DNA from: a virus
Reading direction: 5' to 3' (one strand)
Virus record (IMG/VR): IMGVR_UViG_3300032770_000015
Span: 1 to 64,000 of that record
DNA: 64,000 nt
Below are positions 4,031 through 61,619 of the stretch, piece after piece. A program made the translations under genes and the position numbers. Each line of letters opens with the position of its first letter. Position 1 is the stretch's first letter. Below the pieces are notes generated by a model, which was not told the DNA's origin, did not search any database, and was given only the letters and a program-made list of their open reading frames with translations.

Positions 4031-4533
4031 CGGAACATTTCTCCTCGTGGTAGTGGTACCTGGACCGCGTAGTCCGGTCCCGGTTCGTTCGGCAGGCGGA
4101 GCGGGGCGGCGGCCACGCCGTCCAGCAGGAGGCGGGCGATCTTCACGAACCAGGCCTGCCACTCGGCCGGGTCGTCCGCGCGCACGGGCCAATCCGACCG
4201 CAGGCTGACGGGGGCGCGACCCGGTATGATGATCCGGAACAGGATGTCGTCGCTGACCACACTGTTCCAGACCGACACGACCGTTTCCTCGGGCAGCCCG
4301 GCCCGGCGAAATGTCGCGCGCAGGGTTTCGCTTAGCACGTCGGGCTGGCGGATGCGCATCGTGAAGAGCGGCGGCGCGACCGGCGCCACGGCGGCCCGCT
4401 CGTCGGCGAGATAGATGCCCGCCGCGTGAAAATCATCGAGCAGGGCGTCGGTATCAGCCGCCGGTTCCGGGGGCGGTGGGCACATGTTCCCGGCGCTGAG
4501 CACGCTGGCGCCGCCCCGGTCGAAGAGGTTCAT
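4027..4533 (-). CDS. Hypothetical protein, 168 aa
   Basis: ATG at 4533 overlaps the stop of the methyltransferase (ATGA). A Pro-rich stretch (CPPPPEPAADTD) near residues 18-29 is followed by an acidic helical segment and a C-terminal alpha/beta region with an AEWQAWFVKIARLLLDG helix. I recognise no domain. Confidence 0.6.
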   Translation of the reverse strand: MNLFDRGGASVLSAGNMCPPPPEPAADTDALLDDFHAAGIYLADERAAVAPVAPPLFTMRIRQPDVLSETLRATFRRAGLPEETVVSVWNSVVSDDILFRIIIPGRAPVSLRSDWPVRADDPAEWQAWFVKIARLLLDGVAAAPLRLPNEPGPDYAVQVPLPRGEMFR

Positions 4534-5996
4534 GCGGCCCCGGTGATCTTCGCCCGGAGGCGCTTCAGGTCGTGCGACGTGAACTTTAAGGGGTGCGCGG
4601 ACCCCGGCCCAAACTGGGCGTGCGTTGCCGCCATGATGCTGGCGTCATCGGCCCCAAGGGCGATCATCGCCCGGGCCAGGGCGGTCGGCCCGGCGACCGG
4701 GGCTGCCGGTGCCTGGGTCACTTCAGAAGGCCGAACGGCCGGAGGCGCCGCGTCGTTCCCGTCGGCCAACGATACGAGCTGCCGATCAACCGCCGCGGCG
4801 ACGGCGGCAACCTCGACGGCAGCACCGGCCAACGAGGCGGGGGCACCGATCCCGGCCGCCTCGCCCGGGTCGTCGTTCTCGACCTCGGACGCCGGGAACG
4901 GCGGCGGCGAGACGACGGTCGCCGTCCAGCGTTCGAGGTCTACGATCTGCGCCACGTTCGGGTCGGCCGGGACGTTGGCCGCGAGCCCGGCCAGGACGTT
5001 CCGGGCCAGCCACGCGCCGACCGGGGGCATCACGGCCTGCGCCGTCTGCGCGTACCGGTTCCCGAGGTTCGGCCCGATGAACTGGTAGTCGGGTGGATAC
5101 CCGCAGAGGAGCTGCTGCTCAAGCAGGGTGATGTACCGCATCTCGGTCGGGTGGAACTTCGTCGCGCCGCCGGTCAGGGTTGGCGACGGCTTGTCGAAGT
5201 CGAGCCTGACGTCCAAGAATCTTGGCCGTCCCTTCACGTGGCCGTGGGCGTTCAGGGTCCACGTGGCGGGCGGATGCGCCGTTTCCCACGCGCGGCGGAG
5301 CGACCCGCCGGGCGGCGTCGAGGCGAGGAGCGCGAGGTGCTCGGGATCGCTCGTCGGCAGGGGTGGCGGGGGCGACGGGTCAACGACCTGGCCGGTCAGG
5401 ATCGGCGCCCAGGCGTCGCGCACCGTTCGTTCGGGACGGTTCCCCGGTTCCGGGTAGTCCCAGGGGATGTCGATCTTGTGGAAGACGCAGAAGAACCGTC
5501 GCCGGATCTGCGGCACGCCGAGGTGCGCGGCGTTCAGGAGTACGTACGACGCCGCGTACCCGTATCCGCGGGCGACGGCGGTCAGCTCGTCCACGAGCTC
5601 CCGGCCGCGCTTGAACGCGAGCTGGACCGATTCCCAGGCCCAGACCTTCGGCTGGACGACCTCGAGGACGCCGAACGCTTGGTGGATGCAGTTGACCCGG
5701 GGATCTTGCCGCCACCAGTCGGCCATGATCCCCTTCTTCTGCGTCGAGATGCCCGCGCCCGAGAACGGCGCGCAGGGCGGGTTGCCGTACACGAAGTCCA
5801 CCCGTCCGGCATACTCGCGCGATGGCCAGGTGGCCGCGTCCGTTTCGACGCGGAGGCCGGGGTGGTTCGCTCGGGTCGAGGCGACGCCGTACTGCGAGCT
5901 CTCAAACTGCGCGAGCACGTCGAACCCGGCGCGCCGGACCCCGAGGGTGAACCCCCCGGCGAAGATGTGGACGCCCAGGGCGGTCGGGCGCGTCAC
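4530..5996 (-). CDS. DNA (cytosine-5) methyltransferase with C-terminal extension
   Basis: The start is set at GTG 5996 because it forms a GTGA overlap with a small upstream gene; this gives 488 aa. C5-MTase motifs are in order: I (IFAGGFTLGV, 11-20), IV (GNPPCAPFSG, catalytic Cys about 75), VI (WESV, about 122-125, Ser replacing the usual Asn), VIII (QIRRR, about 164-168), IX (SPTLTGG) and X (GNRYAQTAQAVMPPV). After motif X there is a ~150-residue tail ending in a helical module resembling the C-terminal half of the next gene upstream (6100-6699). It probably protects phage DNA from host restriction. Target sequence unknown. Confidence 0.88.
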   Translation of the reverse strand: MTRPTALGVHIFAGGFTLGVRRAGFDVLAQFESSQYGVASTRANHPGLRVETDAATWPSREYAGRVDFVYGNPPCAPFSGAGISTQKKGIMADWWRQDPRVNCIHQAFGVLEVVQPKVWAWESVQLAFKRGRELVDELTAVARGYGYAASYVLLNAAHLGVPQIRRRFFCVFHKIDIPWDYPEPGNRPERTVRDAWAPILTGQVVDPSPPPPLPTSDPEHLALLASTPPGGSLRRAWETAHPPATWTLNAHGHVKGRPRFLDVRLDFDKPSPTLTGGATKFHPTEMRYITLLEQQLLCGYPPDYQFIGPNLGNRYAQTAQAVMPPVGAWLARNVLAGLAANVPADPNVAQIVDLERWTATVVSPPPFPASEVENDDPGEAAGIGAPASLAGAAVEVAAVAAAVDRQLVSLADGNDAAPPAVRPSEVTQAPAAPVAGPTALARAMIALGADDASIMAATHAQFGPGSAHPLKFTSHDLKRLRAKITGAA

Positions 5997-6100
5997 GGCG
6001 ACATCCGCCACCAGCCGTGGAGCCGCCAGTGCAGCCACCGGAACGGGTGGCGCCAGGGGCTCGGCCGGTTGTAGCTGAGCCGCGTGAAGACGGCGGTCAT
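5993..6100 (-). CDS. Very small basic aromatic protein, 35 aa
   Basis: An ATG at 6100 (TGATG junction with the preceding gene) opens a 35-codon frame, MTAVFTRLSYNRP then PWRHPFRWLHWRLHGWWR, that stops just before the methyltransferase GTG (GTGA overlap). Both junctions match the array's coupling pattern, and the Trp/Arg/His-rich composition is unlike its neighbours. It could be a leader peptide coupling the methyltransferase, or a membrane-active or DNA-binding peptide. Confidence 0.45.
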   Translation of the reverse strand: MTAVFTRLSYNRPSPWRHPFRWLHWRLHGWWRMSP

Positions 6101-6699
6101 CAGACCACCCCCGGCAGGCCGCTCGTCGTGGTCGCCGCGTCGGGCACGGTCGCGGCATCGGCGGCCAGCGCCGAGAGCTGCGCCGGGTCGGTCGAGTCGG
6201 GCACCGGCGGCTCGGGGGCCGGGACGGGCGCGTGGTTCTTGACGACGGTCACCTTCGGGTGCGCCCGGTAATACCGGACCGTGCCGAGGCGGAGCGTCGG
6301 GAACCGGGGCTGCAGCTCGGCGAAGATCTGCGCGTCGTCGAGCCCGCGGCCCACGCCGTCGCGGATCGCGGCGGCGACGCCCCGGTTTGCGGCCGCGAGC
6401 GGGGCCGCCGTGCGCTTTGCCGCGGGGGCCGCCGCGGGCGGGGTCTTCTTCTTGACTGCCACTGGAAGCTCCTTCCCCTGTTCGGTGTACCAGGCCGCCT
6501 CGAGCGCGTCGCCGACGACCGCATACGGGTCGTCGTTCGCGTCGGGCGCCGTGTTTCGGTTTGCAATGACCCGCCAGGCGCTGGCCACGTCGTTATACGG
6601 GCGCGCGGCCAGCGCGGCGAGGGTATCCGCCACGGTATCGTGGAGAACGAACGCGACCGTGCCGAAGAGCGCCGTTCCGACGACCGTGGGTGTGTTCAC
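6100..6699 (-). CDS. Hypothetical protein with C-terminal helical module, 199 aa
   Basis: GTG start at 6699, GTGA overlap with the 24-aa gene. Residues 1-80 form a helical domain; an Ala/Lys/Pro linker (VKKKTPPAAAPAAKRTAAP) follows; residues about 100-150 (AAIRDGVGRGLDDAQIFAEL then GTVRYYRAHPKV) look like a helix-turn-helix-type module. A similar arrangement closes the neighbouring methyltransferase, suggesting a shared DNA-contacting or partner-binding domain. Function unknown. Confidence 0.6.
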   Translation of the reverse strand: MNTPTVVGTALFGTVAFVLHDTVADTLAALAARPYNDVASAWRVIANRNTAPDANDDPYAVVGDALEAAWYTEQGKELPVAVKKKTPPAAAPAAKRTAAPLAAANRGVAAAIRDGVGRGLDDAQIFAELQPRFPTLRLGTVRYYRAHPKVTVVKNHAPVPAPEPPVPDSTDPAQLSALAADAATVPDAATTTSGLPGVV

Positions 6700-9599: not shown

Positions 9600-9787
9600 G
9601 CGTCTCCCCTCTCGCGCGAACACGTCGGCTCGCACGTCGTCCGGCGGGCCGTATCGGTGCCCCGCCGCAGGTGATAGATCGGGGCGCGGCAATCGGGACA
9701 GCGCCCGATCTCGCGCCACTCGTGGTCGCCGCCCGGAACCGGGGCCGCCGAGGCGACGGGCCGGGAACCTAGAGCCAGGCCTTCCAT
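9596..9787 (-). CDS. Small zinc-ribbon protein, 63 aa
   Basis: ATG at 9787 with GGGAGA upstream. RCPDCRAPIYHLRRG gives one Cys pair and CEPTC a second, forming a likely zinc ribbon. It overlaps the helicase stop by 19 nt. Confidence 0.55.
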   Translation of the reverse strand: MEGLALGSRPVASAAPVPGGDHEWREIGRCPDCRAPIYHLRRGTDTARRTTCEPTCSRERGDA

Positions 9788-11751
9788 GCGTCTCCCGTCA
9801 CGCTCGCCGCCAGCTGCTGCTTCCGCCGCAGCACGTCGAGCAGCTTAAGGTCCACCGTCTCGTTCATCACGATGTCCACGTAGGTCACCGTACCCGTCTG
9901 CCCGATCCGGTGCGCCCGGTCCTCGGACTGGGCGCGCGACTCGAGGCTGAACGAGTTCGAATAGTAGATGACCGTCTTCGCCTGGGTCAGCGTCAGGCCG
10001 AGGCCACCGGTCTCGGTCTGCCCGACAAAGAACCGCACGGCCGACCCCGGGTCTTGGAACGCGGTCCGCGCCGTGATCCGGCCCTCCTCGTCCACGCCGC
10101 CGTGGAACTCGACCACGGTATCGGGGCCGCACGCCGTGCGCAGGGCCGTGGCGATCAGGTCCAGCTCGGCGCGGAACCGCGCCCAGATGATGACCTTTCC
10201 CGGCAGGTCGCCGACGAAGTCCGTCAGCGCCTCGAGCTTCGGGTTCGGCCCCGGGATCGGCTGCACCCCGGCCGGGTACTTGACCGGGATGCCGTTCTCG
10301 CCGACCAGGACGCGCTCGAGCGGGACGAAGCCGCCGACGATCTGCTGCAGCCGGAGGAGCTGCGTCAGGACCATCGTGACCGTAATCCGGGGCTGCCCGG
10401 CCAGCTCGGCCATCATCTCGTCGCGCATCTGCCGGTAGATCCTGCCCTGCTCGGGCGCCGCGTCCACGGTCAGCTTCTGATAGATCTTCGGCGGCAGGTC
10501 GAGGCAGTCCTCGCGCAGAACGCGGAACGAGTACGGCTCGACGAGGCGTTGCAGCTCGTCGAGGTGGGCGTACCCCAGGATCTCGTGGTTGCTGAACCCG
10601 CCCATGATCGCGTAGTGGTTCCGGTAGGCGTAGAACGATCCGAACCCGAGGATGTTGGGGTCCAGGAACTTAAACTGCGTGTAGTAGTCGAGCGGCCCCT
10701 GCGTGATCGGCATCCCGCTGCAGATGCGGCGGTAGGGCGCCAGACGCCCGAGCTTCACGATGTTCCGGGTCCGCGTCGCGCCGGGCGACTTGATCCGCGA
10801 CGACTCGTCCACGGTCAGCAGCGTGGGGCCGGTCTTCAGGAACCGGGCGGCGGCCTCGAAGCCGCGGGTCGTCGAGAGGGCCTCGACGTTCATCACCAGC
10901 CAGCGCAGGCGTGTGTCGTCCGGCGCCGGGTCGAACACCTCGGCCAGGGCGCGGGCGTGATCGCCTGTGGCGCCGGGCCGCCAGTAGACGGCCTTATAGC
11001 GCACGTAGTCGGGCGTGTGGAGCGGCAGCTCGTCGGTGACCCAGTTGGTCTTGACACTGTTCGGCGCGATCACCAGCGCCTGGGTGATCTTCCCCCGGCT
11101 GTGGAGCCAGCACGCGGTGTCGATGACGACCTTCGTCTTCCCCGTGCCCTGCTCCATCAGGATCGCGAAGGCCGGTACGTCGCGCGACAGGAGGAAGCAG
11201 CGCCGCTGGTGGTCCATCGGCGGCGGCCCGCCGAACTTGTAGTCGGTAACGGGCGCCGGATCGCCGATGATCGCCGCCTTGGCGTCGTGCATCCGGGCGT
11301 GCTCGGCCGCGGCCTCGACCACGTACGTCTGGTAGGCGGCCTCGGCGGCCGGGTTCCAGACGGCGGCGGGAAACACCTTCCGCAGATAGGCCAGGTTGCG
11401 CCGGGTCGGCTTCGCGGCCCAGGTCTTCGTCTGCCCGTGCCACATGTGGTGGTCGGGAATCCGACGGCAGAGCTCGGCGTTCGCCGTCGAGTACGGCACA
11501 GCCAGGCGCAGGAGGCCGTCGCGCAGGTCCACCGTGTAGCCCGAGCGCGTCGGGTACGGAATCCCCGGGAGTCCGATCCCGAGGACGGCGAGCGCCTGCC
11601 AGTTTTCCACCGTGTGGGGCACGTACCAGGCGCCCGCCGTCCCGTCAAAACGCCGGGCCGGAAGCGAGCGGATCTTCCCCAGCGTCTCCGCGTCGGGGGC
11701 AAACCGGAGCTCGACCTCCTCGCCGACGAGCCGGGCCGCGATCCTAACCAC
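9769..11751 (-). CDS. SNF2-family DNA helicase/translocase with HARP-like N-terminus
   Basis: About 660 aa. GTG 11751 has GGAG upstream and is preferred; ATG 11772 is seven codons earlier. RRFDGTAGAWYVP near the N-terminus resembles the HARP repeat of SMARCAL1-type annealing helicases. SNF2 motifs: Walker A MEQGTGKT (about 200-206), motif II VDESSRIKSPG (DESS in place of DEAH), SGMPITQGPLDYY (motif III region), then the C-terminal RecA lobe with IIWARFRAELD, GGLGLTLTQAKTVIYYSNSF and DRAHRIGQTGTVTYVDIV (motif VI). It acts on branched or stalled DNA, presumably in phage replication or recombination. Confidence 0.9.
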   Translation of the reverse strand: MVRIAARLVGEEVELRFAPDAETLGKIRSLPARRFDGTAGAWYVPHTVENWQALAVLGIGLPGIPYPTRSGYTVDLRDGLLRLAVPYSTANAELCRRIPDHHMWHGQTKTWAAKPTRRNLAYLRKVFPAAVWNPAAEAAYQTYVVEAAAEHARMHDAKAAIIGDPAPVTDYKFGGPPPMDHQRRCFLLSRDVPAFAILMEQGTGKTKVVIDTACWLHSRGKITQALVIAPNSVKTNWVTDELPLHTPDYVRYKAVYWRPGATGDHARALAEVFDPAPDDTRLRWLVMNVEALSTTRGFEAAARFLKTGPTLLTVDESSRIKSPGATRTRNIVKLGRLAPYRRICSGMPITQGPLDYYTQFKFLDPNILGFGSFYAYRNHYAIMGGFSNHEILGYAHLDELQRLVEPYSFRVLREDCLDLPPKIYQKLTVDAAPEQGRIYRQMRDEMMAELAGQPRITVTMVLTQLLRLQQIVGGFVPLERVLVGENGIPVKYPAGVQPIPGPNPKLEALTDFVGDLPGKVIIWARFRAELDLIATALRTACGPDTVVEFHGGVDEEGRITARTAFQDPGSAVRFFVGQTETGGLGLTLTQAKTVIYYSNSFSLESRAQSEDRAHRIGQTGTVTYVDIVMNETVDLKLLDVLRRKQQLAASVTGDAWKAWL

Positions 11752-11947
11752 GGGCGCTCCGCAGGTCGTCACGGCGCATCAGCGCGGCCAGCCGGTCCAC
11801 CACGAGGTCTTCCTCGTTGACGCGCGGGTGATCGTAGGTGATGTCCACGAGGAACCCGGCCACGCGCCGGCTCGTGGCGCTGAGCGAACGTCGCCAGGCC
11901 TCGAGCAGGAGCTCTCGCGGAGCCGGATTGCCGCCCACGGTGATCAT
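11744..11947 (-). CDS. Small hypothetical protein, 67 aa
   Basis: ATG at 11947 in a TGATG junction with the membrane protein before it. Helical and charged (PRELLLEAWRRSLSATSRRV, NEEDLVVDRLAALMRRDDL). Overlaps the start of the helicase by a few nt, so the two are probably translationally coupled. Confidence 0.6.
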   Translation of the reverse strand: MITVGGNPAPRELLLEAWRRSLSATSRRVAGFLVDITYDHPRVNEEDLVVDRLAALMRRDDLRSARG

Positions 11948-14619: not shown

Positions 14620-14799
14620 CTACTTCCCGAGCTTGCTCGCGTCGGCGGCGACCGTCGTGCCCGCCTTGGCCACGTCCTGCGCGATCTTCTGCGCCACGTC
14701 GCCCACCTCGCCGAACAGCTTGCCGAACTTGGTCTTGCGGACCAGGAGCCCGGTCAGGACGAACACCACCACCGCCGTGATCACGATTGCCCAGAACAT
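14620..14799 (-). CDS. Small single-span membrane protein, 59 aa
   Basis: The start is the ATG at 14799 with GGGAGGGG upstream; an upstream extension would run into the tmRNA gene and is rejected. MFWAIVITAVVVFVLTGLLV is one TM helix, followed by a positively charged cytoplasmic helix (RKTKFGKLFGEVGDVAQKIA). Its gene starts about 30 nt beyond the 3' end of the tmRNA. Confidence 0.65.
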   Translation of the reverse strand: MFWAIVITAVVVFVLTGLLVRKTKFGKLFGEVGDVAQKIAQDVAKAGTTVAADASKLGK

Positions 14800-14828: not shown

Positions 14829-15255
14829 TGGACCAGCGGGGAATCGAACCCCGGTCCAACCAGCGCAGCCCTTCAGCAGTTACGAGCGTGCCCATTCACG
14901 GCGGGCGCCGAGGGACGACGGTTAGCGGGCTCTCGCGAGTCGCGCCGGGATGACCGTGTCCTCCACCAGCCGGGTTTCCGCTTACCAGCGCCGCGGCGCC
15001 CAGGCTCCGCCATCGGCGTTTCGTCCGATGCTGGCGACGGTGCCCCGAGTATCGGAGTCATCGGACCGTCGTCACCTGCCGCTGCTTAGGCGGCGCGGGC
15101 CAGTGCCCGAGCCGGACGGCGCTCGAGCTGGCTGACCACGGTGAACTTCGAGGACGCAGGCTTCGCGTTCCGTAGGTGCCCCTGTCACGGCGCGGGACGC
15201 TCCGGCTCGCCACTTCCGTTCGCACCAGCTGTCGAATCCTGTCTGGCCCAGGTCC
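14829..15255 (-). ncRNA. ssrA: tmRNA (transfer-messenger RNA)
   Basis: On the minus strand the 5' end reads GGACCTGGGCCAGACAGG then ATTCGACAGCTGG, matching the conserved GGATTCGAC region at the tmRNA 5' end. The 3' end holds a T arm (CCGGGGTTCGATTCCCCG) and CTGGTCC, which pairs with GGACCTG except for one T-T mismatch. The discriminator A is at 14829 and CCA is not encoded. The tag frame ends LARAA-stop at about 15087-15091, close to the usual ALAA; it probably begins at GCG-TCC-TCG-AAG (ASSKFTVV...), giving about 23 residues. Length 427 nt is within the normal range. It should tag stalled peptides and rescue ribosomes. Phage-encoded tmRNAs are known but uncommon. Confidence 0.88.
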
Positions 15256-15256
15256 A

Positions 15257-16069
15257 TCAGCCCTCCGCCTTCGGTACGACCCCGGCGCTGATGGCCGCCG
15301 GGCTGGCGGTATGGCTAAAGAGCGGCCGGAGGCGGTCGAGAATCCGCCGCTTCACGTCCACGTCGGTAATCTCCTCCACGATGGTCGCCAGAATGGCGCC
15401 GAAGAACGCCGTGCCCTGGCGCGCCGTCACGATGGTTTGCAGCGCCTCCTCGCGGCGGCGTTCCGTATCGTTCAGGCGGCGCAACTGCTCCTGCGCCTCG
15501 AAGAGCTCGCGCCAGATCCCGCGCTCGGCGTCGGCGAGGTCCACGGCGCCGCGCAGCTCCGTGTCGATGCTCTGCAGCTCGTTCAGCAGGGCGGCGTACG
15601 GCTTCGGCTCGTCGGGATCGTCGAGGAGCTGGTCGGGGTCGAGTGGCTTCGCCTGCGCCGCCCCGGCCTCGAGCGCGGCCACGACCTTCGGGATCGCCTG
15701 GTTCAGCCGCAGCTCGAGGCCACCGACGACGGCCCAGGCTTCGGCGGACTCCTTCGTCGGGAACCGGCCGACCAGCTCGGCCAGGCGGGCCGAGACCAGC
15801 CCGATGTCCTGCGACAGCGACATGAGCTGCGGGTCGTCCATCGCGGCGAGGAACCGCTCGGCTAGCTGCGCCGGGAGGTCGGCGCCGCGATACTTCGACA
15901 GGCTGGCACCGCGCAGCACGTCGAGCCCGCGCAGGCTCTTCCCACCGTGAAGGCGGCACCGCTCGCGCCCGGCGACCGGGTACTTCATGCAGTACCGCGG
16001 CGGCTGCGTGCCGCGTAGGTGCGCGTTGCAGCGCCCCGGTACGGTCTCGAGCGCGCCGTTCCCGTCCAT
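15257..16069 (-). CDS. Phage protein with N-terminal Cys/His knuckle and HGG motif, possible small terminase
   Basis: 270 aa, TGATG junction at the start. The N-terminus holds RCNAHLRGTQPPRYC and RERCRLHGGKSLRG, a Cys/His cluster with the HGG motif common in phage packaging-associated proteins. The rest is helical and acidic with coiled-coil character (RRLNDTERRREEALQTIVTA). It may be a small terminase subunit, since none is otherwise visible, but it is about 29 kb from the large subunit. Its stop lies 2 nt before the tmRNA 5' end. Confidence 0.5.
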   Translation of the reverse strand: MDGNGALETVPGRCNAHLRGTQPPRYCMKYPVAGRERCRLHGGKSLRGLDVLRGASLSKYRGADLPAQLAERFLAAMDDPQLMSLSQDIGLVSARLAELVGRFPTKESAEAWAVVGGLELRLNQAIPKVVAALEAGAAQAKPLDPDQLLDDPDEPKPYAALLNELQSIDTELRGAVDLADAERGIWRELFEAQEQLRRLNDTERRREEALQTIVTARQGTAFFGAILATIVEEITDVDVKRRILDRLRPLFSHTASPAAISAGVVPKAEG

Positions 16070-27341: not shown

Positions 27342-30056
27342 TCACGCCCCCTGGAAGGTGACCACGGCGTCACGGCCCGCGATCTGCTGCAGCGCCTTGA
27401 TGAAGGCCGCGTACTGCGCCGGGTCGTCCATGTTCAGGAACGAACCGCCCTGGATCACGACCTGCAGCGAGCCCGCGTTCCCCGAGGCCGCCGTCGTGCT
27501 CGTCACGGCCGACGAGGCCGACGACGAACTACTGCCGCCCCCGCCACCCCCGGCGTTCGTCGCGGCGCCGGACAGAACGCCGCCGAGCGCGAAGAACGCG
27601 GCCGCAGCGGCGAACTCCTCGGCCGCGGCGCCCCACTTCGAGGCGTCGCCGCCGATGGCCATGCCCGTGTCACCGATGGCCTTAGCGAGGAAGAACTTCC
27701 CGAGGCCTTCGGCGATGGCCGCGATGGCCTTCAGCATCGTCTCCTTGAACGCCGCCGCCGCCGACTTCGACCCGTCCACCATCGCTGCGAAGGCGTTCTC
27801 GATGGCCGGGCCGAGCGCGTCAATCGTTGAGATCAGGCCGTCGGCGAGCACCTGGTTCAGGCTCGTCGCCGAGTTCTCCGCCGCCGTCGCCGCATCTGTG
27901 AACGCCTGCTTGAACGTCCGCGACTCAACGCCCATCACGCCGAGCGTCAGGCCGAACTTCTTCAGCGTATCCTCGAGCCGCTGCAGCTCGCGGTCCATCG
28001 CCTCGGCCTCGGGACCGTGCATCGTCGCCCGGGCCAGGAGCATCGCCGGGCCGATGGTGTTGATCGCCGTCCGAAACTGCGTGATGCTGATGTCGTTGTG
28101 GGACAGCTGGGTCGTGAGGTCCTGCGATTCCTGGATCAGGACCTTGAGCGCCGCGTTCCGCACCGCGTCGTCGAGGGTGCGGATCGCCGTCGTCAACGTC
28201 TGCTGCTCGTGCGCCGTGATCCCGGTCGTGGCTGATAGCGTCGTCAGCTGCGTTGTCAGGTCAGCGGCCCGCGCGCGATATTCGGCGAGCGAGATGTCCC
28301 CGTGCGTGAACTCCTGGTCGAGCCCGCGGACCTGCGCCACGGCGCCCTCCACGGCCGTCTGCAACGCGGTCGTGTTATACCGGCGGAGCGTGTCATCAAT
28401 CGCTTGCAGCGACCGGTTCAGCGTCTCGAGCTCGGGGCCGTGCAGCGAGGCCCGCATCGCGTACATCTGCGGGGTGATCTTCCCGATCCCGGCCTGGAAC
28501 GCGGCGAGCGTAATGTCACCGTGCTGCAGCTTGCTGTCCAGGTCGGTGGCCTGGTTCGTCAGGTCCTTGACCGTCGCGTTCCTGATCGCGTCGTCCAGGT
28601 TCGTGACAGCGTCGCGCAGCGTCTGCTGCTGCTTCGCGGTCGTTCCGGCGGCCCCGGCCAGGGCATTCAGCTGCACGACGAGCGCCGCGCCCCGCTGCCG
28701 GTACTCGTCGAGCGTGATGTCCCCGTGCGCGTACTGCTCCTCGAGCTCGCGGACCGCGGCCGTTAGGGTCTGGATCGCCGTCGTCTGGTTCGACGTATCG
28801 CCCTGCTGCCCGGCGAGGTTCGGCCCGGCCCCCGCCCGGTGGATGTCCGGCGCCGGGAGCGGGTTCGCCGTCGCGTCGTGGTATAGCTTCAGCCAGTCGT
28901 CGCGGACCGTCAGCAGGGCCAGGTCTACGCCGGTCATCGCCTGGTTGAACGTCTGCACGCTCTCCGCCACCTGGCGCCGCCACGGGCCGTCGTCAATCGG
29001 CGGCAGGATGGTCGGCTTCAGGTCGGGGATCGCCGCCATGATCGTGCCCAGCTGGGTCGGAAGCAGCGCGATCATGTGCTTGATGGCGTTGACCTTATCC
29101 ACCGCCCACTCTTCGACCCGGTTCAGCAGCGGCGTGACCTCGTTGATGATGTCGATCCAGCCCGCGATGGCCCCGTAGATCACCGCCTGGATCGCGCCGC
29201 TGATCGCCTTCCCGATGTCGAACGCGATCTTGAACGTCCCAACGACCGAGTCCACGACGATCCGCACCACGTCGGTGATGACGCTCCCCCACTTCACCCA
29301 CGTGGCCATATTGTCCTGGATGCTCTTCGTCTCCTGCTGCATCCAGCCGCTCAGATTCCGGCTCGCGTCGCCACCGGAGATGGACCCCGCGATTACCTCG
29401 CCCATCGCGGTCTTCAGGTCGGTCCAAGACGACTTCAAGATGTCGATCTGCCCGGCTAGCGACTTCCCGCGCTCCTCGGCGATGGTGAACATCGGCAACG
29501 TCGCCGTCATCAGCGCGTTGTACCGTTCCTGCTCGGTCCCGAGCCCGTTCAGGTTGATCCCGTACCGCTGGAGACCGTTTCCGGCGCCCTCGAGCGCCTT
29601 CGCGATCAGCGTGCCCGCGCGCTCGGTCGAGATGCCGAACGTCTCCGACAGGCCCACGGCCGCCTTCATCACCCCGGCGATCTGATCCCCGGTGAGCGTG
29701 TGCACCATCGTCGTGACGATCTGCGCGACCCCGAGCGTCGCGTTCTCGGTCACGCCGGTTAGCTTCATGATGTTCAGCGCCATCGCCTGCACGGCGTCCG
29801 ACGCATCATCCGAATACCGGCCCGTGACCCGCAGGGCGGCGTTGAACGACGTGATGGCGCCCTCGCGGTCGGCAAACGCCTCGATGAGCCCGGCACCGAA
29901 CCGCACGAGCTCGTCGGCGATGAAGCCCGAGACGAGTCCCTTCAGCGATGCGACCTGATCCCACAGGTTCTGGACGTTCGCAATGGCCGACGTGAACGCC
30001 GCGCCGGTCGCGTCGTACGCATCTATGATCAGCTCAACGATTGTGCGGTTTGCCAT
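27342..30056 (-). CDS. Tape measure protein, 904 aa
   Basis: Helical, with typical TMP features: RTIVELIIDAYDATGAAFTS at the start, KLTGVTENATLGVAQIVTTM and GLQRYGINLNGLGTEQERYN (found in many TMPs), and hydrophobic segments near 300-330. A ~125-residue unit (HGDITLDEYRQRGAALVVQL ... ; HGDISLAEYRARAADLTTQL) is repeated in tandem in the middle, followed by a Gly/Ser-rich region. Position after the chaperone pair fits. By the usual 1.5 angstrom per residue it implies a tail of roughly 130-140 nm. Confidence 0.88.
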   Translation of the reverse strand: MANRTIVELIIDAYDATGAAFTSAIANVQNLWDQVASLKGLVSGFIADELVRFGAGLIEAFADREGAITSFNAALRVTGRYSDDASDAVQAMALNIMKLTGVTENATLGVAQIVTTMVHTLTGDQIAGVMKAAVGLSETFGISTERAGTLIAKALEGAGNGLQRYGINLNGLGTEQERYNALMTATLPMFTIAEERGKSLAGQIDILKSSWTDLKTAMGEVIAGSISGGDASRNLSGWMQQETKSIQDNMATWVKWGSVITDVVRIVVDSVVGTFKIAFDIGKAISGAIQAVIYGAIAGWIDIINEVTPLLNRVEEWAVDKVNAIKHMIALLPTQLGTIMAAIPDLKPTILPPIDDGPWRRQVAESVQTFNQAMTGVDLALLTVRDDWLKLYHDATANPLPAPDIHRAGAGPNLAGQQGDTSNQTTAIQTLTAAVRELEEQYAHGDITLDEYRQRGAALVVQLNALAGAAGTTAKQQQTLRDAVTNLDDAIRNATVKDLTNQATDLDSKLQHGDITLAAFQAGIGKITPQMYAMRASLHGPELETLNRSLQAIDDTLRRYNTTALQTAVEGAVAQVRGLDQEFTHGDISLAEYRARAADLTTQLTTLSATTGITAHEQQTLTTAIRTLDDAVRNAALKVLIQESQDLTTQLSHNDISITQFRTAINTIGPAMLLARATMHGPEAEAMDRELQRLEDTLKKFGLTLGVMGVESRTFKQAFTDAATAAENSATSLNQVLADGLISTIDALGPAIENAFAAMVDGSKSAAAAFKETMLKAIAAIAEGLGKFFLAKAIGDTGMAIGGDASKWGAAAEEFAAAAAFFALGGVLSGAATNAGGGGGGSSSSSASSAVTSTTAASGNAGSLQVVIQGGSFLNMDDPAQYAAFIKALQQIAGRDAVVTFQGA

Positions 30057-44737: not shown

Positions 44738-46378
44738 TTAAAAGCTTACGTTGCCTGCGTCGTTCGCCATCGTATACGTCTGCCGGACCTGGCGCACCCA
44801 ATTCCAGTAGACCGCCGCGTCGCCCTTGTTCGGCGACCGCTTCCCGGGCAGGCGCTTGCGGAGCGCCTCCTTGGCCTCGACCTGAATCTTCTTGTCCGAC
44901 GCAGGCCGCCACGTCGGGGTCGTCAGGTCGAGGATCAGCTCCTCGTCGTCGTCAATGATCAGGCGACCGTACTGCGCGTCGAGCCGGAAGAGCCAGTGCA
45001 TCTGGGCGCGCAGGTTAAGAAACTGCTCGTCCTCGTTCTCCAGCACGCCGGGCTCGGCCAGCGCGCCGCCGATCAGCTTCTGCACGTCATACCCAAGCCG
45101 CACGAGCTCGTTCGCGCACCCGACGCCGACCCCGACGTAGTCGACCCCGACGTAGTCGGCGTCAATCCCGCGCGGGGCGATGTCCGTGATCGCCAGGGTC
45201 GCCCCGAGCACGTTGGCGTCCGGGCACCGGTCGGCCGGGACCTCGCAGAGGATCGCGCCGCGCCCGCGCGCGACCGCGGCGAGATCGCCGTTTTCCGAGT
45301 TCGCCACGTCCACGCCGAGCGCCAGCGCGCCGTCGAACGCATCGAATGGCGGCGGCAGCTTCAGGTCCGGGCGCACCAGCAGCTCCGCGAGCGACCGGAT
45401 ACCGAGCGCCCGGCAGAGCTCGCGCCCGCGATCCACGGCGGCGTCGAGCCAGGTCCGGTGGATCAGCGCGTCGGACGCCTGCGCCGGGCTGACGCCCCGG
45501 ATGCGCGAGAGGTACATCGGCGACCCTTCGCCGTACTTCTCGGTGCGCTGCCGGATGGACGGCAGCGACACGGCGCCGGGGATCAGCATCGGGTCGTCGC
45601 AGACCACGTTCGGGTGGTCCAGCGCGCTGATCCGCACGTGCGTGATCCCGGGTGACACACAGAACCGGTGGAGCGAGTCCTCGCGATGGTCCGGGTTCCC
45701 GAACGCCAGCCGCAGGTTGTGCGGCGCCACCGATGTCTGCTCGAAGGCGGCCATCACCGCGCCCTTGATCCCGGGCGTCTCCTCGGTGATGATCAGCATG
45801 TCCTTCTCGTGGAAGCCCGCGGCCTTCGTCGCCACGACCTCCTCGGCGACGACCCCGACCGGAAACCCCAGGGCCTTCCACTTCTCGCCGGGTGGCGCCA
45901 TCTTCAGCGACAGGCTCGTCAGCTCGGCGGCCGGGCGGCGGCGCCGGAACCGGGGGAACATCGCGCCGAGCTCCTTCCAGATGTGGAGCTTCAGCTGATC
46001 TTCCTTCGGGGCCGCGGTCACGACGACCGAGTTGCGCCAGCAGTCGGTGAACCACAGGACCAGGGCGGCGCCGAGGAACGTCTTCCCCGTCCCGGTCGCC
46101 GACTCAACGCCGACGGACTTCCCCTCGGCGAGGGCGCGGCAGATCGCGGCTAGGGGATCGGGCGTCCCGTCCCACTTGTGCGTGGCGTAGGCGCCACCGA
46201 ACTCGGACCACACGATGGTCCGGCGCGGGATGCCCAGCACGTCGGTCATCCACAGGATCGGGTCGGCCCGCCACGCACGCAGCTGGGGGTCGTCGTCCTG
46301 CATGATGTCGCGTTCGAGCCCGGTCAAGAACTCGGCCGTCAACCGGGCGAACAGCGTGGGGCCGAGCGCGTCGGTCAT
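44738..46378 (-). CDS. terL: Terminase large subunit, 546 aa
   Basis: The ATPase has Walker A GVESATGTGKTFLGAALV (about 89-106) and Walker B MLIITEETPG (about 195-204). The nuclease half has GVDVANSENGD and NKGDAAVYWNW with conserved Asp residues. It cuts and packages concatemeric DNA at the portal. A short DNA repeat near 45,127-45,157 encodes the direct repeat DYVGVDYVGVGVG in the nuclease domain. Confidence 0.92.
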   Translation of the reverse strand: MTDALGPTLFARLTAEFLTGLERDIMQDDDPQLRAWRADPILWMTDVLGIPRRTIVWSEFGGAYATHKWDGTPDPLAAICRALAEGKSVGVESATGTGKTFLGAALVLWFTDCWRNSVVVTAAPKEDQLKLHIWKELGAMFPRFRRRRPAAELTSLSLKMAPPGEKWKALGFPVGVVAEEVVATKAAGFHEKDMLIITEETPGIKGAVMAAFEQTSVAPHNLRLAFGNPDHREDSLHRFCVSPGITHVRISALDHPNVVCDDPMLIPGAVSLPSIRQRTEKYGEGSPMYLSRIRGVSPAQASDALIHRTWLDAAVDRGRELCRALGIRSLAELLVRPDLKLPPPFDAFDGALALGVDVANSENGDLAAVARGRGAILCEVPADRCPDANVLGATLAITDIAPRGIDADYVGVDYVGVGVGCANELVRLGYDVQKLIGGALAEPGVLENEDEQFLNLRAQMHWLFRLDAQYGRLIIDDDEELILDLTTPTWRPASDKKIQVEAKEALRKRLPGKRSPNKGDAAVYWNWVRQVRQTYTMANDAGNVSF

Positions 46379-56599: not shown

Positions 56600-56670
56600 G
56601 CCGAGGGGCGGGCGCCGACGAACCGGCGCCCGTTAAGGCACGGCCCGGTCCCAAGTCCGGGCGGAACGCA
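56600..56670 (+). ncRNA. Type II two-hairpin leader element, copy 1
   Basis: GCC-GAGGGG-[CGGGCGCCG/CGGCGCCCG]-TTAA-GGC followed by GCCCGG-TCCCAAGT-CCGGGC. Located right after the 223-aa gene. Confidence 0.65.
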
Positions 56671-56735
56671 GGACGCCGCGCCAGGTATGGTGCCGGGTAA
56701 GCGTCCGTGCCGAACCCCATCACTTGAGGTGACAT

Positions 56736-56744
56736 ATGCGGTAG
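56736..56744 (+). other. Possible minigene ATG-CGG-TAG
   Basis: GAGGTGAC is followed by ATG CGG TAG (fMet-Arg-stop) between the first two type II elements. Minigenes of this kind can sequester peptidyl-tRNA, as lambda barI does. No other evidence; could be chance. Confidence 0.2.
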
Positions 56745-56757
56745 ACCCCCGGGTAAC

Positions 56758-56840
56758 GCCGAGGGCGACGATCCGCCGGGCCGTACGCGCGCCCCGGGTC
56801 GTCGTAAGGCGCATGGCCGGTCCCAAGCCCGGCCGAACCC
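56758..56840 (+). ncRNA. Type II two-hairpin leader element, copy 2
   Basis: GCC-GAGGG-[CGACGATCCG/CGGGTCGTCG]-TAA-GGC, then GGCCGG-TCCCAAGC-CCGGCC. The P1 stem has a completely different sequence from copy 1 with preserved pairing, evidence of selection on structure. Confidence 0.7.
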
Positions 56841-56859
56841 GAACGAAAGGAACGACCCG

Positions 56860-57234
56860 ATGTCGCTTCGCTGGCAGATGTCGAACGAGCAGAGCCCCGC
56901 GTGGGTGAACCTGTCGCCCGTGATGCGGGAGACCATGATCTTCGGCCTGGTCATCGCCGATATGGGCGAGATCAAGGACGAGGCCGCCGCCGAGAAGTTC
57001 TGGACCCGGCTCCGGATGGCCGAGCTGGCGCAGGGCGACTCGTTCGTCCACCAGACCCCGGCGGGCGACGGCCCGATGATCCAGCGTTGGATCACCCTGG
57101 CCGACTGCCGGGCGGCCATCGGGCTCGGCGCGAACGTGCGGACGACGACGGACGCGCAGTACAATCGGAAGGTCGCCGGTATCCTGCGCGACACGGCCGT
57201 CGCCGAGCTGCGGCGGGCGAAGGACGCAAAGTAG
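56860..57234 (+). CDS. Hypothetical protein, 124 aa
   Basis: ATG with AAAGGAACG. SLRWQMSNEQSPAWVNLSPV, RETMIFGLVIADMGEIKDEA, FWTRLRMAELAQGDSFV. Helical; no family recognised. Confidence 0.62.
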   Translation: MSLRWQMSNEQSPAWVNLSPVMRETMIFGLVIADMGEIKDEAAAEKFWTRLRMAELAQGDSFVHQTPAGDGPMIQRWITLADCRAAIGLGANVRTTTDAQYNRKVAGILRDTAVAELRRAKDAK

Positions 57235-57304
57235 CCGAGGGGCGGGCGCCGATCCGTCGGCGCCCGTTAAGGCGCACGGCCGGTCCCAAGCCCGGCCGAA
57301 CCCC
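57234..57304 (+). ncRNA. Type II two-hairpin leader element, copy 3
   Basis: Begins at the G of the upstream TAG stop: GCC-GAGGGG-[CGGGCGCCGA/TCGGCGCCCG]-TTAA-GGC, then GGCCGG-TCCCAAGC-CCGGCC-GAACCCC. GGGG and CCCC could also pair to close the element. Confidence 0.7.
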
Positions 57305-57322
57305 AAATGGAAAGGATGCCGG

Positions 57323-57811
57323 ATGAACTACGCGAACGTGCTAGGCGAGGCGAAGGGCAAGTTTGGCGCGTGGACCGCCTGGTATGTGCTGGGCGAGGCC
57401 GCCACCGGGTACGCGGTCCGCGCGCAGTTGGCGCCCGACCTGACGGTGAACCCGTTCACGGACACGGACATCTACGGCGCGGTCAAGGAGATGAACAGCA
57501 CGCAGCGCCCGGCCGGGTTCGACGGCGCAGCGCGGAAGATCCACACGCCCCGGTCGGTGTACTGGTGGCAGCCGCCGTCGGATACGCGCGACGCGGCGGT
57601 CATCGCGTCCATCGCCGAGCGCGTGCGGCGGTTCCTGAACGACGACTGGTCGTATGTCGGCCTGCTCGTCGAGGTCCGGCACCCGCCCTGCACGCTGTGC
57701 GGCGAATCGCGGGTCACGTCGGCCGGGCTCTGGGGCATCGAGTCGGACAGCGACGACGGGTACGTGATCGAGACGCTAGGCGACCTCGTGAACGAGGCGA
57801 AGGACGAGTAA
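57323..57811 (+). CDS. Conserved phage protein, 162 aa
   Basis: FNDDWSYVGLLVEV-type region (RFLNDDWSYVGLLVEVRHPP), then SAGLWGIESDSDDGYVIETL, similar to a conserved family with LWGIES near the C-terminus found in many phages and plasmids. One Cys pair (CTLCGES). Function unknown. Confidence 0.72.
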   Translation: MNYANVLGEAKGKFGAWTAWYVLGEAATGYAVRAQLAPDLTVNPFTDTDIYGAVKEMNSTQRPAGFDGAARKIHTPRSVYWWQPPSDTRDAAVIASIAERVRRFLNDDWSYVGLLVEVRHPPCTLCGESRVTSAGLWGIESDSDDGYVIETLGDLVNEAKDE

Positions 57812-57812
57812 C

Positions 57813-57880
57813 GCCGAGGGCGACCGCCGCGCGGTTCCGGCGGTCGTAAGGCACGGCCCGGTCCCAAGTCCGGGCGACCC
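57813..57880 (+). ncRNA. Type II two-hairpin leader element, copy 4
   Basis: GCC-GAGGG-[CGACCGCCG/CGGCGGTCG]-TAA-GGC, then GCCCGG-TCCCAAGT-CCGGGC-GACCCC. Different P1 stem sequence, pairing kept. Confidence 0.7.
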
Positions 57881-57899
57881 CATCAACGAAAGGACGTGT

Positions 57900-58100
57900 A
57901 TGGCGCTCGTGATGCTGCCCCGTACCGACGACCTGCCGCCGGTGTACGTGAACCCGGCGCACGTCGTCGGCGTCGAACCGTCGGTGACCGACCCCGGCGC
58001 GCCGGTCTGCACCGTGTACGTGCTCCCCGGGAACCGGGGCCACTTCGTCGCCCTGTCGGCGCTCGAGGCCGCCCGCCGCCTGAACGGGGGTGCCGCGTGA
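57900..58100 (+). CDS. Small hypothetical protein, 66 aa
   Basis: ATG with GAAAGGA. ALVMLPRTDDLPPVYVNPAH, PVCTVYVLPGNRGHFVALSA. Overlaps the next gene as GTGA. Confidence 0.6.
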   Translation: MALVMLPRTDDLPPVYVNPAHVVGVEPSVTDPGAPVCTVYVLPGNRGHFVALSALEAARRLNGGAA

Positions 58101-58477
58101 GGACGAAGCTGAACGCCCTGTTCAAGGCGCTGCGCCAGGCGGGCGTCGCGGCGCACCAGAACTACGAGTGCTGCCAGGGGTGCGGCTGCGCCCGCGTCGC
58201 GTCCGAGATCGGCGTCGTCGGCGCGTACGTCTTCTATCACCACCAGGACGCCGAAGACCTCGAGCCCCCGCGCCATCACCGTGCGGGCGACGGCTGGCGG
58301 CCCGGCGTCTACCTGGCGTACGGGATCGTGTCGGCCGTGGAGCTGCCGGACGCGGTGGAAGAGGCCCTGCGGCTGAAGGTGGGCGAGCTGATCCGGAGGC
58401 TCGCCACCGTGGTCGGGCTCGCCGTCGAGTGGGACGGGACGACCGCGCAGCGCATCTGGGTCACGGAGGCCGCGTGA
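58097..58477 (+). CDS. DUF6891-like conserved protein, 126 aa
   Basis: GTG start. NYECCQGCGCARVASEIGV, GAYVFYHHQDAEDLEPPRHH and VGLAVEWDGTTAQRIWVT follow the plan of DUF6891 proteins, which are widespread and of unknown function. Confidence 0.7.
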   Translation: MRTKLNALFKALRQAGVAAHQNYECCQGCGCARVASEIGVVGAYVFYHHQDAEDLEPPRHHRAGDGWRPGVYLAYGIVSAVELPDAVEEALRLKVGELIRRLATVVGLAVEWDGTTAQRIWVTEAA

Positions 58478-58800
58478 TCGACACCCTCGAGCCGTCGCCG
58501 CGCCGCGAGCCCACGCGGCAGATGTTCATCGTTCCGAACGACCCCGCCGGGCGGGCGGTCATCGCCACTCTGCGCGCATACCTGAACCGGGCGACCTACC
58601 GCCTGCGGGTCGTCGGCCGGGGCGTCCGCGCCGACCGCGCCCGCGAGTTCCGCCGCACGCACCGGGCCTGGGCGACCCGGCGCCCCGACTACGCCTGGAT
58701 TCCGCGCCGGTACGCGACCCGCCTGGCCGTGTACATCGAGCGCAAGGACGGGATCGGGATCAACTGGCAGCAGCTCCGCACGCTGTACCCCGTCCGTTAG
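58474..58800 (+). CDS. Hypothetical protein, 108 aa
   Basis: GTG (GTGA coupling). RQMFIVPNDPAGRAVIATLR, RAYLNRATYRLRVVGRGVRA, then Arg/Tyr-rich AWATRRPDYAWIPRRYATRL and WQQLRTLYPVR. Basic; possible nucleic-acid binder. Confidence 0.6.
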   Translation: MIDTLEPSPRREPTRQMFIVPNDPAGRAVIATLRAYLNRATYRLRVVGRGVRADRAREFRRTHRAWATRRPDYAWIPRRYATRLAVYIERKDGIGINWQQLRTLYPVR

Positions 58801-58869
58801 CCGAGGGGCGGGCGCCGATCCGTCGGCGCCCGTTAAGGCGCACCGCCGGTCCCAAGTCCGGCGGAACCC
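58800..58869 (+). ncRNA. Type II two-hairpin leader element, copy 5
   Basis: GCC-GAGGGG-[CGGGCGCCGA/TCGGCGCCCG]-TTAA-GGC then CGCCGG-TCCCAAGT-CCGGCG. Begins at the stop codon of the 108-aa gene. Confidence 0.7.
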
Positions 58870-58890
58870 ACTGGAGAAAGGCTGGGCGAG

Positions 58891-59232
58891 ATGTCCGACG
58901 TGCAGATCACGAAGGTTCACGCCGTCGAGTGGCACCGCAACGGCGTCGGCGGGCTCGGGTTCCACGTCGTCCTGTTTGACGAGGCTACGGAGGGGCGGAT
59001 GATGGCCGTGGACTTCGGCCCCGAGGCCGACGCGGCGACGGATTCCTTCGGGGTCATCGCGGTCTTCCAGCTCGACAAGCTAGCGGCCGGTGACGTGGCC
59101 TTCGGGTCGAACTCGTGGCGCGGCGACCACTACACCGGGCCAGTCCGGGCGGTCATCACGGCGGCCGAGGCGCGGGGCGAGACCGGGAAGCTCGGGCCGT
59201 TCTCGCTGCCGCCGCAGCTTCGCCGGAAGTAG
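58891..59232 (+). CDS. Conserved phage protein, 113 aa
   Basis: EWHRNGVGGLGFHVVLFDEA, FQLDKLAAGDVAFGSNSWRG, a plan seen in phage proteins with WHRNGV.G..F and NSWRGD. Function unknown. Confidence 0.68.
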   Translation: MSDVQITKVHAVEWHRNGVGGLGFHVVLFDEATEGRMMAVDFGPEADAATDSFGVIAVFQLDKLAAGDVAFGSNSWRGDHYTGPVRAVITAAEARGETGKLGPFSLPPQLRRK

Positions 59233-59298
59233 CCGAGGGGCGGGCGCCGATGGATCGGCGCCCGTTAAGGCACGGCCCGGTCCCAAGTCCGGCGACCC
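59232..59298 (+). ncRNA. Type II two-hairpin leader element, copy 6
   Basis: GCC-GAGGGG-[CGGGCGCCGAT/ATCGGCGCCCG]-TTAA-GGC, then CCGG-TCCCAAGT-CCGG; one G of the P2 stem is missing relative to the other copies. Confidence 0.65.
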
Positions 59299-59319
59299 AT
59301 CTCAAAGGAGGCAGCCGGT

Positions 59320-59634
59320 ATGAGCGCACGCGTCTTCGTCTGGCCCGAGCGGACCTACGAGGAGCTGGGCGCCGAACGCTGGGCCGTGTCCTGGAAGACC
59401 GTGCGGCCCGGCGCCAACGTAAATGAGGAGATCGACTTCGACGTCGACCTCGTGGACCGCGCCGTCGCCTGCCGGACCCACGCGGCGGCGGTTGCCCGCG
59501 CGCGGCGCGCCGCCGCCGAGGACTACTTCGGCGGGGCGGTCGTTCAGCGCCAGGTCGTCGCGTGGGACGTCGAGGAGGACCGCATCGCCGAGTGGGCCCC
59601 CGCTGGTGAACCCGAATATGTGGAGGACCGATGA
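59320..59634 (+). CDS. Small hypothetical protein, 104 aa
   Basis: ATG with AAAGGAGG. ARVFVWPERTYEELGAERWA, DFDVDLVDRAVACRTHAAAV, EDYFGGAVVQRQVVAWDVEE. ATGA overlap with the next gene. Confidence 0.6.
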   Translation: MSARVFVWPERTYEELGAERWAVSWKTVRPGANVNEEIDFDVDLVDRAVACRTHAAAVARARRAAAEDYFGGAVVQRQVVAWDVEEDRIAEWAPAGEPEYVEDR

Positions 59635-59990
59635 GACCGCGCACGTCGATCATCGTCGCCCTTCGGCCCGGCCGAACCCAGGCCGCGGCCGACCGCCGCG
59701 AGCGGATGGAGACCATCATCCTGGCCGAGGCCCGCGCCCGGGGCGTCCGGTATGACGGGTCGGGGAACTACGTCACGGGGCCGCGGCGCGGGACGCGCGA
59801 GCTTTTCTTCGTGACGCGCCGGCGCGACCTGACCGTCGCCGCCGTCCGCGACCTGAAGGCCGACGTCCGCGAGGCGGAGCACTTCGCCTACCGGACGTAC
59901 TTCATCACCCGGGACTATGGGACCGGCGCCTGGCTCGTGAACCGCGGCGGCCGGACCGTCGCCGCCGCCGCCCGGGCGCTGGTCCGTTAG
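59631..59990 (+). CDS. Hypothetical protein paralogous to 62682-62957, 119 aa
   Basis: The C-terminal half RRDLTVAAVRDLKADVREAE, HFAYRTYFITRDYGTGAWLV aligns with RNDLTRAAIRDLKVDLRVPT, HFSYRGFYVTRSFSTATWYI at 62682-62957. The N-terminus differs. The shared domain is a small alpha/beta unit of unknown function. Confidence 0.65.
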   Translation: MRPRTSIIVALRPGRTQAAADRRERMETIILAEARARGVRYDGSGNYVTGPRRGTRELFFVTRRRDLTVAAVRDLKADVREAEHFAYRTYFITRDYGTGAWLVNRGGRTVAAAARALVR

Positions 59991-60119
59991 CCGAGGGGCG
60001 GGTGCCCGTCCGCGATGCGCCGCTGGGTCGAGCCGGGTTCCGACCGGCGCCAGCACGCGGTCTCGCACGACGTGGTACCCGTTAAGGCGCACCGCCGGTC
60101 CCAAGCCCGGCGGAACCCC
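59990..60119 (+). ncRNA. Type II two-hairpin leader element, copy 7 (expanded)
   Basis: Same ends as other copies (GCC-GAGGGG-CGGGTGCC ... GGTACCCG-TTAA-GGC; GCCGG-TCCCAAGC-CCGGC), but P1 carries a ~65-nt insertion, itself able to fold. P1 pairing is kept through a G-U pair. 130 nt instead of ~70. Confidence 0.6.
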
Positions 60120-60140
60120 ACTAGAGAAAGGCTGGGCGAG

Positions 60141-60500
60141 ATGGATGAGCGGCAGGCATCGCGTGAGGCAGCCGAGGACGTGCGGTACGAGCGCTGGGAG
60201 GCGCTATTGTTCAAGCACGTGCCCGGCCTGACGCGCGGGAAGAATCCGGCGTGGCGGTCCGACTTGATGATGGAGGCCGATGGCGGCCCGATCTTCATGA
60301 AGTTCATGTCGGACGGTGGCGTGGATGACACGCCGAACGGTCTGGCGCTGCGGGCCTGGCTCCGGGCGCGGAAGATTCCGTTCCGGCAGTATGGGCTGAA
60401 GGAGGACCCCGGCCAGGTGCGGGTCTTCACGCTGTCGCGGCGGGCGTTCGCCCGGGTCGAGGCCATTCTGCGCGGGCTCGAGCGCCGCGCGGCGCGGTAA
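60141..60500 (+). CDS. Hypothetical protein, 119 aa
   Basis: ATG at 60141 with GAAAGG. MDERQASREAAEDVRYERWE, FMKFMSDGGVDDTPNGLALR, FRQYGLKEDPGQVRVFTLSR. Winged-helix-like C-terminal end possible. Function unknown. Confidence 0.6.
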   Translation: MDERQASREAAEDVRYERWEALLFKHVPGLTRGKNPAWRSDLMMEADGGPIFMKFMSDGGVDDTPNGLALRAWLRARKIPFRQYGLKEDPGQVRVFTLSRRAFARVEAILRGLERRAAR

Positions 60501-60532
60501 GCCGAGGGCTGCTGGTGCTAAAGGTCGCAAGG

Positions 60533-60603
60533 GCCGAGGGACGGGCGCCCCGATCCGGGCGCCCGTTAAGGCGCGCCGCCGGTCCCAAGTCCGGCGGAAC
60601 CCC
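60533..60603 (+). ncRNA. Type II two-hairpin leader element, copy 8
   Basis: G-CC-GAGGG-[ACGGGCGCCC/GGGCGCCCG]-TTAA-GGC, then CGCCGG-TCCCAAGT-CCGGCG-GAACCCC. A decayed partial copy (GCCGAGGGCTGCTGG...TAAAGG) lies just upstream at 60501-60530. Confidence 0.65.
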
Positions 60604-60618
60604 GAACGAAAGGACCGT

Positions 60619-60951
60619 ATGATCACGACGAAGCGGCTGATCTTCCACCTCGACGCGGCCATCGCGCGGCACGTCCGCGACTGGCAGCGCCTGACCGAGC
60701 ACGGCACGATTGCCGTCGACTCGGACGTGATAGCGCTGTACGCGCAGGACATGGCCGCGCTAATGCGGGCGCGGTCGGCGTTCTGCCACGCCAGGTTGGT
60801 CGAGGAGCACAGCACGTGGGACACGGCGACCGTCGCCCGGCTGCTGCGCCGGGGCGCGCGCATCTTGCGCGACCGCGACACGGCGGTCACCGACCACTTT
60901 CCCCGCCCGCTCGTCCTGGCGGTCGGGTCGCTGGTCGGCGACGGCGCGTGA
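60619..60951 (+). CDS. Hypothetical protein, 110 aa
   Basis: MITTKRLIFHLDAAIARHVR, DSDVIALYAQDMAALMRARS, VARLLRRGARILRDRDTAVT. Helical, with GTGA coupling to the next gene. Confidence 0.6.
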   Translation: MITTKRLIFHLDAAIARHVRDWQRLTEHGTIAVDSDVIALYAQDMAALMRARSAFCHARLVEEHSTWDTATVARLLRRGARILRDRDTAVTDHFPRPLVLAVGSLVGDGA

Positions 60952-61618: not shown

Positions 61619-61619
61619 C

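Follow-up and report, generated by a model that had tools for sequence, protein, structure and literature searches.

The minus strand of a 64,000-nucleotide stretch of viral DNA (hereafter the window; positions 1 to 64,000 of IMG/VR record IMGVR_UViG_3300032770_000015) carries between 15249 and 14829 a complete, very divergent, phage-encoded one-piece tmRNA gene, and we consider it highly probable that its product is a functional tmRNA performing ordinary trans-translation. The Rfam model RF00023 aligns over its whole length with positions 15249-14826 of the minus strand at 30.4 bits when Rfam is run at an E-value threshold (E 2e-10 in a 701-base search and 5.8e-12 over the whole contig), a score that stands after a composition correction of 34.5 bits, as is expected at 70% G+C. 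This is below the Rfam gathering score of 47 bits, which is a curatorial cut-off and not a biological feature, and far below the 100-240 bits of most bacterial tmRNAs surveyed. The tmRNA is absent from the window matches obtained at Rfam gathering thresholds, ARAGORN calls neither a tmRNA nor a tRNA in the window, and a BLASTN search of named phages with the gene returned 0 matches. Because ordinary tRNAs also score 20-41 bits against RF00023 (over about 76 nt), a score of 30.4 bits is in itself little proof, and it is the full length of the match, the lack of a tRNA call and the internal structure that carry the identification. An earlier note on this DNA had proposed a minus-strand tmRNA of 427 nt, to be checked with Infernal/Rfam and ARAGORN; its strand and nature hold on the full-length, sub-threshold RF00023 match, ARAGORN did not find it, and the gene is 421 nt long, its 5' end lying six bases further in. 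A permuted tmRNA (RF04321, 19.6 bits; relaxed ARAGORN) was rejected, the one-piece order being complete, and a v-snoRNA match in Rfam was taken as chance. The gene, its parts and the phage genes discussed below are:

14829..15249, minus: tmRNA (ssrA) gene, one-piece, 421 nt, CCA not encoded (RF00023 full-length match, and structure read against the tmRNAs of L030 and L041)
15243..15249, minus: acceptor stem 5' strand GGGCCAG, 7/7 pairs with 14830-14836, third pair G3·U
14829..14836, minus: acceptor stem 3' strand CTGGTCC (14836-14830) and discriminator A14829 (pairing)
15231..15239, minus: D-loop-like GGATTCGAC (sequence and RF00023 alignment)
14837..14853, minus: T arm CGGGG-TTCGATT-CCCCG (sequence)
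15221..15231, minus: P2 5' strand, 11 pairs (5 G-C) with 14857-14867 (pairing)
15205-15210, minus: P2b GCGAGC, 6 pairs with 14882-14887 (pairing)
15178..15204, minus: PK1, H-type, CGGAGC-GUCCC-GCGCCG-UGACA-GGGGC (layout as in PK1 of L041 and L030)
15086..15166, minus: tag frame, most likely AKPASSKFTVVSQLERRPARALARAA plus UAA, 26 aa (open frame; 11-nt PK1 spacing as in L041)
15078..15094, minus: H5 hairpin GCCGC/GCGGC, whose loop holds the UAA that ends the tag (pairing)
15024..15070, minus: PK2, GACGGU/ACCGUC and CCGA/UCGG, knot UCCGAU/AUCGGA (covariation in 4 phage tmRNAs)
14968..15018, minus: PK3, CGCCG..GGCG/CGCC..CGGCG, knot AGCC(U)GGG/CCCGGCU (same architecture in L041)
14913..14961, minus: putative PK4 position, long-loop helix GGACACGGU/ACCGUCGUCC (helix read, knot not claimed)
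15257..16069, minus: upstream gene, 270 aa, its stop codon 7 nt ahead of the tmRNA; L030 has a homologue next to its terminase gene (36%, E 3e-41)
14620..14799, minus: downstream small gene, probably membrane (MFWAIVITAVVVFVLTGLL...), from its sequence; no Pfam match
44738..46378, minus: terminase large subunit (TerL), phrog_2, E 1.2e-12, 48% to L030, showing phage origin

The 5' hallmark and the T arm picked out in the earlier note are both present and canonical, and CCA is indeed not encoded; the T-T mismatch that it placed in the acceptor is an artefact, because its register, starting TGGACCT, lay 6 nt too far 5', and the correct one pairs GGGCCAG with CTGGTCC at 7/7 positions and leaves a discriminator A. 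The G3·U pair together with this A, which is the alanine identity set read by AlaRS, recurs in the tmRNAs of L030 and L041. A D-loop-like GGAUUCGAC accompanies the T arm, the anticodon arm is absent and no tRNA is called; P2, made of the 11-bp CAGCUGGUGCG/UGCGCUGGUUG and of GCGAGC/GCUCGU, links the tRNA-like and mRNA-like domains. When the sequence was shuffled 2000 times with dinucleotides preserved, the P1 and T-arm scores were equalled 1 and 2 times respectively and the four tested elements jointly never (0/2000), while the two P2 helices, which are weak taken alone, had their scores reached in 72/2000 and 707/2000 shuffles.

In the mRNA-like part, stem 1 of PK1, with 3 pairs, an A·G mismatch and 2 further pairs, is the weakest element of the gene; for comparison, PK1 reads GAGC-CCCGC-GA-GCUC-CGACA-GCGGG in L041 and CAGC-AUGGUCCCA-GCUG-CUAAG-UGGGCCA in L030. 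From PK1 stem 2 to the resume codon there are 11 nt before GCG in the window, 11 nt before GCC in L041 and 10 nt before GCC in L030, and since the spacing matches that of L041, the GCG at 15166 is the most likely resume codon and the 26-residue AKPASSKFTVVSQLERRPARALARAA the most likely tag. The earlier note had described an Arg-rich tag of about 23 residues ending LARAA: the ending stands, with its -AA kept and a basic residue at -3 where tmRNA tags mostly have a hydrophobic, ALAA-like end, and the 23-codon version, three codons shorter, is the less likely of the two. The six bases preceding the resume codon are CGGAAC, without the usual A at -4, a position familiar from E. coli tmRNA.

In the window, L041, L030 and L200, 90.6% of the PK2 cells are paired and 6/16 pairs have changed on both sides, with a covariation score above that of 500/500 shuffles and of every slid version; the test uses four sequences and a structure read from those same sequences, and is supportive and not conclusive. 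In the MAFFT alignment, PK2 stem 1 of L200 is out of place by some three columns, an error that makes the paired fraction too low and not too high, and the both-sided change of L200 at pair 7-39 is to be ignored. PK3 shares its architecture with L041, and the PK4 position is occupied by short tetraloop hairpins in L041 and L030 as against a long-loop helix in the window. Of the pseudoknots and resume codon that the earlier note expected on folding, PK1, PK2 and PK3 can thus be placed and GCG is a probable resume codon.

It might be argued from the low score, the ARAGORN miss and the A·G mismatch in PK1 that the gene is a degenerate pseudogene of a phage tmRNA; we regard this as quite improbable, as the tag frame is open and intact and the acceptor, the T arm, H5 and PK2 are likewise intact. 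The same sub-gathering score, ARAGORN miss and mismatch, together with the missing A at -4 and the lack of a visible promoter or terminator, also count against a functional tmRNA. For it speak the full-length RF00023 match, the acceptor with G3·U and A, the T arm, P2, the covariation in PK2, the spacing from PK1 to the resume codon and the UAA in the H5 loop, and in addition a related phage that shares TerL, portal and the gene neighboring the tmRNA also has a tmRNA.

The virus record that contains the window is 88,562 bases long and encodes a portal, a P22-like coat protein and a terminase; in it, the tmRNA is flanked by two phage genes of the same orientation as its own, at a distance of 30 kb from the terminase. 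The related phage is L030 (IMGVR_UViG_3300022226_000041, also G001; 12.8 kb), whose TerL, portal and tmRNA-neighbor gene are 48%, 42% and 36% identical to those of the window and whose tmRNA scores 79.3 bits against RF00023 and has the tag AEDHSVVGSIRPAFVPVLKAA, ending LKAA. Like the window's, it lies in a related phage and follows closely on the preceding stop codon (1 nt after it, 7 nt in the window); unlike the window's, it is 369 nt long, scores 79 bits, has a simple UUCG hairpin at PK4 and is adjoined directly 3' by a tRNA-Pro (TGG; L030:10406-10479). The closest structure is that of L041 (IMGVR_UViG_3300044783_000053), which lies upstream of head genes and has in common with the window the PK1 spacing, the PK3 layout and a long basic tag, and differs in a tag ending ALAA, a GAAA hairpin at PK4 and no shared proteins detected. 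TerL relatives amounted to 17 loci, and RF00023 on the 17 TerL-related records gave one real tmRNA, that of L030; two further matches (50 nt, 8 bits) were taken as chance. A search for relatives through the two flanking proteins gave 0 loci, the homologue of the upstream protein in L030 having been found by local tblastn, and a portal scan gave none. At least two related phages therefore have a tmRNA, whose distribution among the TerL-related records is patchy, most of the others being fragments.

Several further elements were observed alongside. The plus strand has, within 5 kb (window 56600-61678), eight self-cleaving ribozymes of the Twister-P5 type (RF02684, 47-56 bits), and none occurs elsewhere in the contig at the gathering threshold; 7/8 begin no more than about 4 nt from a stop codon, which in most cases is that of a listed small ORF, and the array would cleave a polycistronic transcript of the phage behind many of its genes. 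On the minus strand are genes for a C5 cytosine methylase and an SNF2-type helicase (window 4530-6158 and 9769-11772) and, adjoining the structural genes, one for a 904-aa protein (27342-30056; phrog_8246), probably a coiled coil, whose matches to GvpG and VbhA are weak and fall short of the cut-off.

Genes for tmRNA are common prophage insertion sites, and several viral loci have a 3' tmRNA fragment at their start or end (L024, L036-L039), so that the gene could be conceived as an attachment-site remnant or a captured host gene without a role, a by-product of integration at ssrA. We find this the most improbable of the explanations considered: the gene is complete and embedded between co-directional phage genes far from the terminase, neither a tyrosine nor a serine integrase was found on the contig, the related L030 has a whole tmRNA, and both the PK2 pairing and the tag frame are conserved or intact.

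As regards the partners of the tmRNA, the earlier note had suggested checking whether the phage or the host encodes SmpB: none was found on the window contig, nor in any of 12 further viral records with a tmRNA (several larger than 150 kb, several fragments), which is consistent with the use of host SmpB. No tRNA genes were found either, and since searches for SmpB, integrase and tRNA genes all came back negative, SmpB should be supplied by the host, and AlaRS and CCA addition should be the host's as well. The lack of phage SmpB would also suit a decoy, that is, a charged or SmpB-binding phage tmRNA that mainly competes with host tmRNA and damps host trans-translation. Such a role has been proposed for the TLD-only tmRNA that mycobacteriophage DS6A carries; PMC4131195 describes this tmRNA as well as the inhibition of tmRNA by a molecule like it, perhaps by titrating SmpB. 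Here, unlike in DS6A, the tag frame, the stop hairpin, PK1 and PK2 have all been kept, and compensatory changes maintain PK2 pairs that a decoy would not need; a decoy role is in our view very unlikely.

For the functional tmRNA that we favor, expression would depend on operon transcription and processing, because neither promoter nor terminator was seen for it: the RNA would be transcribed within the minus-strand phage operon and excised by host RNases, with CCA added by the host. We infer that host AlaRS would then charge it with alanine through G3·U and that host SmpB and EF-Tu would bind it, so that it could gain entry to ribosomes that have stalled on truncated mRNA, take over the nascent chain and switch translation to the resume codon GCG. 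A basic tag of 26 residues ending ARAA would be added and the product released at UAA; the phage may benefit from the recycling of ribosomes while host or phage mRNA is cleaved during infection. Because the -AA is kept, the tagged fragments would probably still be degraded, perhaps less well by ClpXP.

The basic end of the tag was set against other tags in a survey in which three DNA patterns supplied the viral loci, and one of these patterns, together with genomes sampled from two bacterial phyla, supplied the bacterial loci, with ARAGORN run on all. On the 168 viral loci ARAGORN called 130 tmRNA genes; 87 were non-permuted and lay over 1 kb away from the ends of their loci, and some may be host genes where the contig is a prophage. 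The earlier note's remark that phage tmRNAs are rare was an overstatement. Among unique AA-ending tags (the viral ones from tmRNAs more than 1 kb from locus ends, the window's own tag left out), the -3 residue is hydrophobic in 31/48 viral and 118/123 cellular tags (Fisher p 3e-7), and K or R occupies -3 or -4 in 13/48 as against 3/123 (p 5e-6), a contrast drawn on unmatched hosts, on related and hence non-independent tags, and on tags as called by ARAGORN. Similar ends occur in other viral contigs: ARAA in L183 and L216, LARAA in L208, LRAA in L192 and L213, and LKAA in L025 and L030. The ARAA end of the window's tag is part of this trend, observed with hosts unmatched, that separates phage from bacterial tags. 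The tag of Bxz1 ends ALV, and an ALV-ending tag was called by ARAGORN in L184 and L207. Odd or long tags also occur among the viral loci (L024-L043, L164-L313), e.g. ANENSFAMTVEEADALLNSFEFEDAEALAA in L293 and GNVINKLSAVGLIRTEESVAVA in L268 and L274.

One might read these frequencies as a sign of a tag-specific function added to ordinary rescue, whereby the basic RAA end diverts or protects fragments from host ClpXP toward another protease as a phage adaptation, the more so as ClpX contacts the antepenultimate position (PMC7652416). Yet the same source reports from Flynn 2001 that changing the antepenultimate Leu raises the ClpXP KM only modestly, a tag ending AKAA is the normal one in Helicobacter pylori (PMC2584231), and the viral and cellular sets are unmatched for host taxonomy; we judge such a function to be rather unlikely. 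The tag is accordingly unusual, as the earlier note had called it, in relation to bacterial tags, and not in relation to other phages, which share it, or to H. pylori AKAA, which precedes it and has a likewise polar, basic -3 residue, but in a cellular tmRNA.

Phage-borne tmRNAs have been described in eight RefSeq mycobacteriophages, in phage G and, TLD-only, in DS6A (PMC4131195), in huge phages (PMC7162821) and in Bradyrhizobium elkanii phages (PMC12656738), and that of Wildcat is the most highly expressed lytic gene of its phage (PMC7474061). The window's tmRNA is likewise phage-borne, as in the mycobacteriophages Bxz1, Cali, Wildcat and others, Bacillus phage G, the B. elkanii phages and the huge phages, and differs from all of these in its unrelated phage lineage, its very high G+C content and its tag. 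Since phage tmRNAs are already known and common in viral contigs, AKAA has its precedent in H. pylori and a change at -3 affects ClpXP modestly, the gene represents no categorical novelty.

What these findings do add is a lineage with tmRNA genes in two related phages, and an illustration that standard annotation, with ARAGORN and the Rfam cut-offs, can overlook GC-rich phage tmRNAs. The tag survey also provides a contrast between the degrons of phages and those of bacteria that is simple and can be tested. We put forward only tentatively, as a possibility, that phage tmRNAs as a group have escaped selection for a hydrophobic -3 residue, with K, R, A or Q in its place, and that their rescue tags are handled differently by host ClpXP; if this were true, the tmRNA of the window would be one instance of such differently handled phage tags.
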